34,161 bases of DNA, taken from NCBI GenBank assembly GCA_013697635.1, contig JACCWM010000043.1, forward strand, positions 1 through 34,161, written 5' to 3'. The notes beneath the pieces were generated by a model that saw only the letters and a list, made by a program, of their open reading frames with translations, ran no database searches and had not been told where the DNA came from. The position numbers and the translations under genes are program-made. Positions 28,123 to 31,645 of this stretch are shown in pieces. The stretch is from Lujinxingiaceae bacterium (GTDB lineage: Bacteria; Myxococcota_A; Bradymonadia; Bradymonadales; Bradymonadaceae). Numbering within the stretch: the stretch's first letter is position 1; each line of letters starts with the position of its first letter.

Positions 28123-28469
28123 GGTATGTGTCACCGGGTGATCGTTGAGATATTGGTCCAAGACAACCTGAAAGTGGCCGCGAACATAGGCGATTTGAAG
28201 GCGATTGTCGATACTTTAGCGATGGCAAGCGTCAATAGATTGGCAGATCGAAATCGGTCAAGCTCCCATGAACATGGGATTTCGCTGAGCGTGCAGATCA
28301 GGTTATGGTGCACGCTGCAACCTACCTCACCGTAGCCGGACTCTTTCAGGGAGCTTCAGTTCACTCGCAATCGCGAGGAACTTGGGCTATTTCCAAAACC
28401 TTGGGATGGCCCGCGGGCCTTGCCGTGTTTGAGCAAGGGCGTGGTCACCTTTTGCCTACGGAGAATGCA
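28123..28469. promoter_or_regulatory. Divergent intergenic region with two inverted repeats
   Basis: This 347-base gap separates the minus-strand HEAT lipoprotein from the plus-strand FrnE-like gene. It contains TCCCATG-AA-CATGGGA (28264-28279, 7-bp arms, two-base centre). It also contains AGCGTGCA ... TGCACGCT (28288-28295 and 28309-28316, 8-bp arms, 13-base loop). Both lie about 145-195 bases before each gene and may be operators. I see no convincing -10/-35 pair and no gene. Confidence 0.45.
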
Positions 28470-28856
28470 ATGAAGGTCGAAATCTGGTCGGACGTGGTCT
28501 GTCCCTGGTGTTATATTGGCAAACGCCGTTTCGAGGCGGCGCTTGGTGAGTTTTCACAGCGCGAGGCGGTCGAGGTGACCTGGCGCAGCTTCGAACTCGA
28601 TCCGGGCGCGCCCAAACGACTCGAGATTTCGCTCGACGAGATGCTTGCCAAAAAGTACGCCATGCCGCTGGTCAAAGCTGCTGCCATGCGCGAGCAGGTC
28701 ACCTCCGTTGCCGCCGAAGACGGCCTCGAGTTCCATCTCGATCGCGCTCAAAGCGGCAATACATTTGATGCCCACCGGCTCATCCACCTGGCCAGCGAGC
28801 GGGGCCTGGGTGCGCCCGGCGAAGGCTGTGACGCGAGCGGCTGTGGCGTGCCCTGA
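28470..28856 (+). pseudogene. FrnE/DsbA-like oxidoreductase with an apparent internal deletion
   Basis: The product is 128 residues, whereas FrnE-like DsbA proteins are usually about 210-240. The N-terminal thioredoxin half is intact: MKVEIWSDVVCPWCYIGKRR with the CPWC redox motif at 11-14, WRSFELDPGAP and the family segment FDAHRLIHLASERGLG (about 99-114). It then jumps directly to GEGCDASGCGVP, which resembles the natural C-terminal tail of FrnE relatives (often a G-x-x-C-G-P-D-G-C type end). About 90-100 middle residues, including the later strands of the fold, are missing with the frame kept. GGAG lies six bases before the ATG at 28470. It is likely non-functional as a typical oxidoreductase, though the frame is intact and a mini-protein is possible. 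Confidence 0.7.
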
Positions 28857-28882
28857 CCGCGGTTTTTAAAGGAGTACCAACC

Positions 28883-29200
28883 ATGTTCACCACTGCGCTT
28901 GGGCGCTTTCGCATCGTCGCGCTCGCAGAAGGCGCCTCTTACTTGCTGCTGCTTGGGGTGGCCATGCCGCTCAAATACGTCTGGGGTTGGCCGCTGATGG
29001 TCAGCTGGGTGGGCGCGGCGCATGGCGCGTTGTTCATCTTGTATATGCTAGCCGGTGCCCATGCTGCCTATGAGCGCCGCTGGTCGTTGACCTTGATGGC
29101 CGCCGCAATCGTTGCTTCGTTGTTGCCCTTGGCCACCTTCTATCTGGACTACTGGCTTCGCCGCCAGCAAGCGCGCGAGCTGGCCCTTCAGCAGGGATGA
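28883..29200 (+). CDS. DUF3817 family small membrane protein
   Basis: This 105-residue protein has three hydrophobic segments. It shows the DUF3817 pattern: RFRIVALAEGASYLLLLGVA, MPLKYVWGWPLMVSWVGAAH and GALFILYMLAG. The role is unknown. AGGAG lies nine bases before the ATG, a strong site. It follows the FrnE-like gene by 26 bases and converges with the PH-domain gene, whose stop lies 18 bases after its own. No terminator is visible between them. Confidence 0.88.
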   Translation: MFTTALGRFRIVALAEGASYLLLLGVAMPLKYVWGWPLMVSWVGAAHGALFILYMLAGAHAAYERRWSLTLMAAAIVASLLPLATFYLDYWLRRQQARELALQQG

Positions 29201-29218: not shown

Positions 29219-31645
29219 TCAAAGATCTTTGGGCAGGTGCTCCTCGACGATGCTGTAGAATCCCTGGTGGTCTTTGATCTCAGCGAGCACCATATCGGTC
29301 ACGTTGCTGCCGACCGTGGCCACACCGACGTTGCCGTTGCCAAACATCTTGTTGAGCAATCCGCGCGATGTCGTCAGATGGTCGATGCGGTTGTACAAGA
29401 TGGTCTTTCGGCTTCGATAGATCAGGCCCCAGGTCGCGACGACGCGCCGGCTCTGGGCGACATAGCGCGTGCGGCGTGCGCGCGCGACGCTCAGCGCAAC
29501 GGTAAAAGGGAGCAGCGCGACCAGTGGCAGCAAGATGAACGACGTCACCACCAGTCTCACGAGCGCGTTGGAGACGGCCCGTTGGGCGGTGCGAAGCGTC
29601 GTGGTGTCGAACTCGCTTGGCTGGCGCACGGGCTTGATCGGGTGGGCGTAAAGCGTCGCGTCGAGTCGTTCGTGGAGCATGTCGACCCGGCTCAGGTAGT
29701 CGAGCCCGGCACCGGCGCCGCCTCCAACCACCCAGCTCAGCCGGCCGGTCTCCGAGCCGATGTAGCGCATCGATTGCAAATGTTTGATGTGGTGCAGGGC
29801 GGCGTGGTGGTGGTGGATGGTGAAGATGCCCTGGCGCAGGTGCAGGCGGTCCGCGAACAGATCGAGGCGGCAGCGTTGGTAGAAGACCACATGGTGAGCA
29901 AACCGGAGGACCATGGCAAAGACAAAGAAGGCTACCAGTAACCAGAACATGGGCGCGAAGATTGCCACCACGACGTTGATCGCGATCAACGTCGTCCATA
30001 CCGCCACGCTGAGCGCGCGCGCCCTGACGAACTGGCCCATGGAGAAGTCCGAGCGCAGCACGCTCTGCGCTTGGCCGCCGCTCAGGCCGATGCGCTCGAG
30101 GATCTCGGCGGCCGTGGCGCGCCCGTTTGGCACATGCTCGAAGACGACGGTCTCGGATGAGCCGATCGAGTTGAACGTCAGGCTGGCCGTCTTGAAGAGC
30201 CGATCGAAGATGCCGTGGCTGACGCTGACTGCGGTCACCTTGTCGAGCGTAAACTCGACCTGGCGCTTGTTGAACAGCGAGAAGTGCAGCCCAAGCTTGT
30301 GATCGTCGATGCGGTAGCGCGTGGCATAGTGGTTGACGCCATGGGTAACGCCGACGCGCACCACCACGGCGGCAACCACGACGAGCAAAACGAGCGTGGC
30401 GATGCCACTTGCCGCGACGACCTCCTCGATCCCATCGATATCCAGGCCGACGACGATGCTGATCGCCACCGCGCCAAGTGCGATGGCGGCCGCGACAAAT
30501 ATGCCATGCGAGATCAGCGTGCCGCCGATCGCTCGCGCCAGGCTGATGCGCAGCTCAAGCTCGGGGCGATTGAGCGTCGGGCGTCGCACCGGAGCGACCG
30601 CAACGCCGTGATCGTCGGGTGCGCCCAAGACGTCGAGGCCAGCATTTGTTGACGCCATGGGCCGGGGTGCACGCGCGCGGATGAGCCGCTCGAGGTTGGC
30701 TTTGAACTGCTCGGCGCGAGGCATGACCTTGAACTTGATGTTCGTATCGGCTCCCTGACAGCTGACGACCAGATCGGCGATGTTGAGCATGCGCCGCGGC
30801 AACGACTGGGAAAGCGTGACGTCCGCGAGGTTCTCGATCGGGATGAACCGGTGGCGCTGGGTCATGAAGCCGTCATGATAGTCGATGACGTCATCGTACA
30901 AAATGTAGGTTCGCTGCAGCAGATCGATGAAGTGTAAAGCGGACCAGGCCACGCCCAAAAGGGCAACAAAGCCCGTGGTCGCAAGAAACGCATAGAAACC
31001 GAGCGAATCGGAAGCAATCTTGTCGTCGCTAAGCACGTTGGCCACGGCAACGCTGAACTGTGCGAGCAAGATGGCCAAAGAGAACAAAGCCCACACCGCT
31101 TTCTCGCCCATCTCCAGGGAGGTGCCGACCAGGCCGGGCCGCTCGCGTTGGATCTCCTGGGTGCGCTTGATCGAGAAGCCGTTGGCGCGCATGCGTTTGG
31201 CGAGCTCGTCATAAAAGAACATCGGATCGGCGACCGACTCCATCGTGATTTCGGCACCGGCGCTGCCGGCGGCCTGGATGGTGACGTTGCCACTCTTGTA
31301 GAGTCTGTTCTCGATGAACGGCAATGTCGCGCCGATTTGCGTGATGTTCTTGAGCTGAAGATCGACGCTTCGCTCCCCGATCAGCCCGCCGGTGTGCAAG
31401 ATCACGCGCTCCGGGTAGAAGCTGTAGGTGGTCTTTTGAAAGCGCACCACACGCGCGCCGAGCTTCAGGCCGACCAGCACGACAAACAAAAAGGCCAGCC
31501 CCACGCCCAGGATCGGCGGTGCATCAACGATGACTCCGATAGCGAAGCCGGTGCCCAGGAGCACCATCAGGGCCGCTGCGAGTTGGAGCGTTGGGCGGAT
31601 CACGAACGGCTTGAATTGGGGTTTGATCGTCAGATCGGCATTCAT
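29219..31645 (-). CDS. Membrane protein with five bacterial PH domains (YdbS/YdbT-like)
   Basis: This 808-residue protein alternates pairs of membrane helices with bPH2-type domains. PH-like units lie at about 72-155, 245-325, 440-518, 587-668 and 727-803. Recurring features are a first strand such as Y-x-[FL]-Y-x-[DE], a turn G[LF][IM]-x-[RQ][RE], and I-x-N-[IL]-x-[DHQ] or I-x-H-[LI] in the middle. Membrane segments are near 18-62, 184-240, 368-432, 545-585 and 695-720. The YdbT group normally carries about three such domains in about 490 residues, so this looks like an expanded form. The family's role is unclear (bacterial PH domains are linked to membrane stress and resistance to antimicrobials). 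GGAG lies eight bases before the ATG. The beta-helix lipoprotein gene lies 78 bases upstream on the same strand. Confidence 0.87.
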   Translation of the reverse strand: MNADLTIKPQFKPFVIRPTLQLAAALMVLLGTGFAIGVIVDAPPILGVGLAFLFVVLVGLKLGARVVRFQKTTYSFYPERVILHTGGLIGERSVDLQLKNITQIGATLPFIENRLYKSGNVTIQAAGSAGAEITMESVADPMFFYDELAKRMRANGFSIKRTQEIQRERPGLVGTSLEMGEKAVWALFSLAILLAQFSVAVANVLSDDKIASDSLGFYAFLATTGFVALLGVAWSALHFIDLLQRTYILYDDVIDYHDGFMTQRHRFIPIENLADVTLSQSLPRRMLNIADLVVSCQGADTNIKFKVMPRAEQFKANLERLIRARAPRPMASTNAGLDVLGAPDDHGVAVAPVRRPTLNRPELELRISLARAIGGTLISHGIFVAAAIALGAVAISIVVGLDIDGIEEVVAASGIATLVLLVVVAAVVVRVGVTHGVNHYATRYRIDDHKLGLHFSLFNKRQVEFTLDKVTAVSVSHGIFDRLFKTASLTFNSIGSSETVVFEHVPNGRATAAEILERIGLSGGQAQSVLRSDFSMGQFVRARALSVAVWTTLIAINVVVAIFAPMFWLLVAFFVFAMVLRFAHHVVFYQRCRLDLFADRLHLRQGIFTIHHHHAALHHIKHLQSMRYIGSETGRLSWVVGGGAGAGLDYLSRVDMLHERLDATLYAHPIKPVRQPSEFDTTTLRTAQRAVSNALVRLVVTSFILLPLVALLPFTVALSVARARRTRYVAQSRRVVATWGLIYRSRKTILYNRIDHLTTSRGLLNKMFGNGNVGVATVGSNVTDMVLAEIKDHQGFYSIVEEHLPKDL

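Follow-up and report, generated by a model that had tools for sequence, protein, structure and literature searches.

The window, a stretch of 34,161 nucleotides that forms one whole contig (JACCWM010000043.1, assembly GCA_013697635.1) of a Lujinxingiaceae bacterium, carries on its forward strand an open reading frame that begins like frnE, ends like frnE and lacks the middle, which raises the question of whether it is a decaying gene or a shortened redox protein. The initial annotation had set out these two options. They proved to be the right ones, and the evidence favours the decaying gene because the GVPF loop and half of the thioredoxin sheet went with the lost part, and because frnE is dispensable in the family. 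Our inference is that the organism really has the deletion, that it happened recently and that it inactivated the gene. We give a probability of about 0.76 to the reading that a recent in-frame deletion inactivated frnE and left a young pseudogene, in a family that is often without frnE; most likely the locus is a dispensable gene that broke recently, and not a novel small enzyme.

The frame runs on the + strand from an ATG at 28470 to a TGA at 28856 (window numbering; 128 codons plus TGA, 28470..28856) and was assigned to frnE with an internal in-frame deletion from the open reading frame, Pfam and alignment to relatives. A GGAG (28460..28463, +), read from the sequence 6 bases 5' of the ATG, is the probable ribosome-binding site, which we take it to be from its consensus. 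G+C at the three codon positions of the frame is 0.68/0.47/0.72, which is gene-like. The active-site motif CPWC (residues 11-14; 28500..28511, +), of which C11, P12 and C14 are invariant in 17 of 17 sequences, is located after the first strand, as in the FrnE subfamily of DsbA. Pfam DSBA covers residues 3-112 (E 2.3e-20), matching only positions 2-99 of the 191 in the profile; NCBIfam gave no family for the 128-aa product at E ≤ 0.01, and the complete DsbA domain, a thioredoxin fold with a helical insert, is not present in it.

The break was mapped by aligning ten full-length copies of the family and class (222-238 aa), the alignment with relatives that had been proposed for locating the deletion. 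These copies align over window residues 1-114, after which the window gene skips to APGEGCDASGCGVP; the break falls after GLG (residues 112-114), and the sequence on either side of it aligns cleanly with relatives. Homologous ends with an internal loss, set against full-length relatives, bear out the in-frame deletion of the initial annotation. The retained N-terminal part (residues 1-114; 28470..28811, +) was delimited by this alignment and by the conservation count below, the junction (28811..28812, +) by alignment with an accuracy of a few codons, and the retained C-terminal tail (residues 115-128; 28812..28853, +) by alignment and a tail-profile score. Relative to the 232-aa FrnE copy of G011, a genome of the same family, 104 aa (about 104 codons) are missing; the shortening of the product was thus rightly called, while its size is slightly more than the 90-100 residues first estimated.

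The first 114 residues or so had been described as FrnE-like, and residues 1-112 are indeed 63% identical to the G011 copy, without a frameshift, none of the relatives searched matching better. Conservation was counted over 88 sequences, leaving out L039 and L079, which are apparently frameshifted, and L083, which judging by length and position lies on the same contig as L010. At the 45 positions conserved at 80% the retained half has a single deviation (median 3; 82 of the 88 sequences deviate at least as often), and it has none at the 25 conserved at 95%. Its terminal branch of 0.35 is the 10th longest of 88 (median 0.19) and does not discriminate, since family copies span 0.03-0.43 and longer branches occur among relatives, in two of the eight copies (0.40 and 0.41) and a third (0.43). 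The N-terminal half thus has no excess of changes against a comparison set that contains no genome of the same genus, and a half-gene without visible decay means that the deletion is young or that selection is still acting.

The tail had been likened to the normal end of the family, with the CPWC and a C-terminal cysteine pair both kept, and the profile score agrees. A tail profile was built from the CX4C tails of 58 relatives; the motif is carried by 58 of 87 relatives, that is, by many FrnE members and not by all. When the bases of the tail were shuffled 100,000 times, 118 shuffles equalled or beat the score of the window tail, and among 12,441 stop-free 16-aa pieces from the six frames of the window, 6 reach it, the tail itself being one of them. 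These scores rule out a chance resemblance to the FrnE end, and judged by them the tail of the window gene reads as a real FrnE tail. Its CX4C motif, C120-C125 (28827..28844, +), was identified from the sequence, and the D. radiodurans FrnE chain 5cnw has APAEGCEDGQCAVP at the matching position. In the review PMC8945050 (section 2.4), CX4C is the second redox motif of FrnE, and its proposed role is the regeneration of the CXXC active site.

The course of events that we propose would begin with a normal frnE encoding a cytoplasmic DsbA-family disulfide oxidoreductase with CPWC and a C-terminal CX4C. Recently, about 312 bases would have dropped out from between codon 114 and the tail with the frame preserved, leaving a product that retains both cysteine motifs but lacks the GVPF loop, the C-terminal strands, the last helix and what remained of the helical domain; the gene would thereby have been inactivated and become a young pseudogene. 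The homologous ends, the internal loss and the intact relatives by which a pseudogene is recognised are all found here. Counting against it, an open frame with both redox motifs surviving is also what a selected short protein would show; the odds of the frame staying open by chance are one in three. The lack of visible decay in the retained part counts against it as well.

Absence of the short form from relatives bears directly on this reading, since close relatives all sharing it at the same length had been named as the case that would speak against a deletion. A search of 282 genomes of the phylum found 42 with a match at E ≤ 1e-15 and 43 matches in all, the window's included; the other 42 all have open frames of at least 217 codons. 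Among the best 80 of at least 562 confirmed relatives in genome_contigs, 78 are 209-249 aa. The other two of these 80 frnE homologues, L079 and L039, are read as 10-aa and 1010-aa frames, likely through frameshifts in draft genomes. A short form common to relatives is rejected, with none among the 42 other phylum matches and none among the 8 intact family copies.

Within the family, 21 genomes were surveyed, the window's being the one representative of its genus. FrnE is intact from end to end in 8 (G003, G004, G007, G010, G011, G013, G016 and G018), and in 10 no FrnE-type copy was found, with distant DsbA-like matches only. The remaining 3 are G006, whose copy is cut by a contig end, G008, with a differently broken copy, and the window's genome (G000) with its 128-aa form. 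The G006 copy (G006:C100), a C-terminal FrnE part at the contig end, is uninformative on fragmentation. It is because of this patchy presence, with 8 of 21 intact, 10 of 21 without an FrnE-type match and the rest cut or broken, that we regard frnE as dispensable in the family. G011, which has an intact frnE, also has two extra pieces of the C-terminal part of FrnE, which share 65% and 56% identity with that intact gene: G011:C238 (L135:437-631, -) has short repeated segments before the piece, and G011:C8 (G011:C8:4395-4517, the end of L136) stops at the contig end. Both lie in repeat-rich stretches and appear to be genuine remnants or rearranged ends, which supports the view that frnE has been fragmented in this family.

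The gene adjoins, 26 bases 3' of frnE, a gene for a DUF3817 (TIGR03954) membrane protein (28883-29200, +), and an 808-aa protein (29219-31645, -) has three matched stretches of the bacterial PH domain (bPH_2, PF03703). Neither the DUF3817 gene nor the other tested neighbours matched beside FrnE at the loci of 90 relatives (tblastn, E ≤ 1e-3), a search that covered flanks of about 1.5-4 kb per locus. That the frame is kept by operon pressure from the DUF3817 gene is not supported, as the pairing was unseen at these loci.

An assembly or binning error, in which frnE is full length in the organism and its two ends were wrongly joined by the assembler, is an unlikely explanation but the most serious rival. 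The genome is a draft (6.2 Mb in 213 contigs, 99.45% complete, 0.66% contaminated), and the junction region is G+C-rich with a strong predicted hairpin (28808-28853) that also takes in the tail, where amplification or assembly can slip; the RNA fold of 28790-28860 is -32.6 kcal/mol, a value without a null comparison. A deletion mediated by direct repeats finds no support in this sequence, where no such repeat of ≥ 10 bases crosses the junction; in relatives, the two break regions have GC-rich words in common, seen by eye, such as GGCGACGC. The absence of a direct repeat also argues against a wrong join. So does the genome search with the full-length 232-aa query, which returned 13 matches at E ≤ 10, the window gene and 12 others. 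The latter are 27-40% identical, compared with 49-55% for whole FrnE copies of the family, and have open frames of 408-751 codons belonging to other DsbA/thioredoxin-like proteins; the missing FrnE segment was not found on any other contig of the assembly. Frames of about 400-700 codons in G000:C86, C128, C121 and C79 match the C-terminal half of FrnE weakly, at one to several places; loci like these occur in many family genomes, and they are probably multi-domain DsbA/thioredoxin-like proteins. A split gene with its other half elsewhere was likewise rejected, the 232-aa query having given only weak DsbA/thioredoxin-like matches in long open frames. Finally, the 191 bases of junction DNA matched no other place in the genome over more than about 47 bases, which also speaks against the error.

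A shortened working redox protein, with CPWC and CX4C forming a mini thiol-disulfide relay or with the product pairing with another protein and its tail acting in trans, is very improbable. It would account for both motifs being retained in frame and for the well-conserved N-terminal half, and PMC8945050 places CX4C, in FrnE crystals, docked at the active site of a second molecule. The structure models point the other way. Models of the window protein and of a full-length control (L083, 238 aa) were run with the same 17 sequences in AlphaFold, giving pLDDT 91.1 and pTM 0.84 for the control and a poor model, pLDDT 71.1 and pTM 0.50, for the window protein. Control helices 113-125, 134-143, 148-156 and 161-173, strands 181-184 and 188-191 and helix 196-213 all come after the break point; the window model retains only a strand, a helix, a strand and three helices, without the four helices, two strands and final helix of the control. 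The GVPF loop, whose G and P are invariant in 16 full-length rows and which we take to be the cis-proline loop of the fold, sits in the missing segment. By these models half of the thioredoxin core would be gone with it. Foldseek still places the window model with FrnE (TM normalised by query 0.61 to 5coh, rmsd 7.2). A thioredoxin-fold enzyme that has lost its cis-proline loop and C-terminal strands would probably not work. With the GVPF loop, both C-terminal strands, the last helix and the remainder of the helical domain absent, the product most likely fails to form a functional thioredoxin domain. The absence of the short form from the 42 other phylum matches also argues against such a protein, as does the failure to find a second, intact FrnE copy in the window's genome that could serve as partner. 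We give hardly any credence to the specific proposal of a 128-aa miniature FrnE kept by selection, in which a CPWC helix unit and a CX4C resolving tail, lacking the cis-proline half, would serve as a thiol relay, either self-contained or acting in trans. Were the short form active, both FrnE redox motifs would be shown to function in the absence of the cis-proline half of the thioredoxin fold, a surprise to enzymologists. If the locus is a young pseudogene, it matters little: a stress-related oxidoreductase that can be dispensed with would have been lost once again, in a family whose members have frnE or lack it from case to case.

Among the literature matches listed, none has a title that reports a truncated FrnE, which does not prove that no such report exists, and the known systems for comparison are full-length proteins and one broken relative. 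D. radiodurans FrnE (DR_0659; PDB 5cnw, 5co3, 5coh, 5cp1, 5e59 and 5xwh) has the same N-terminal CPWC and CX4C tail and is homologous to window residues 2-114 (phmmer E 5.7e-40; Foldseek E 4e-10, 54% identity over 113 columns), but its 260-residue chain has the helical domain, GVPF loop and C-terminal strands that the window gene is without. SCO1869, a putative DsbA oxidoreductase of Streptomyces coelicolor (PDB 3gl5), belongs to the same subfamily and aligns in its N-terminal half (E 1.9e-30), with the tail AEACGPDGCAVP; it differs in being full length, at 239 residues. The broken frnE of G008 (G008:C716, L138:2294-2548) is like the window gene in having a normal FrnE start (69% identity over residues 1-29) and an internal piece lost in frame. 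Its deletion is a different one, in the region of window residues 38-91, where EVEI is joined to KSGNTFDAHRL, and its product, in which the C-terminal half is absent, totals 84 aa.
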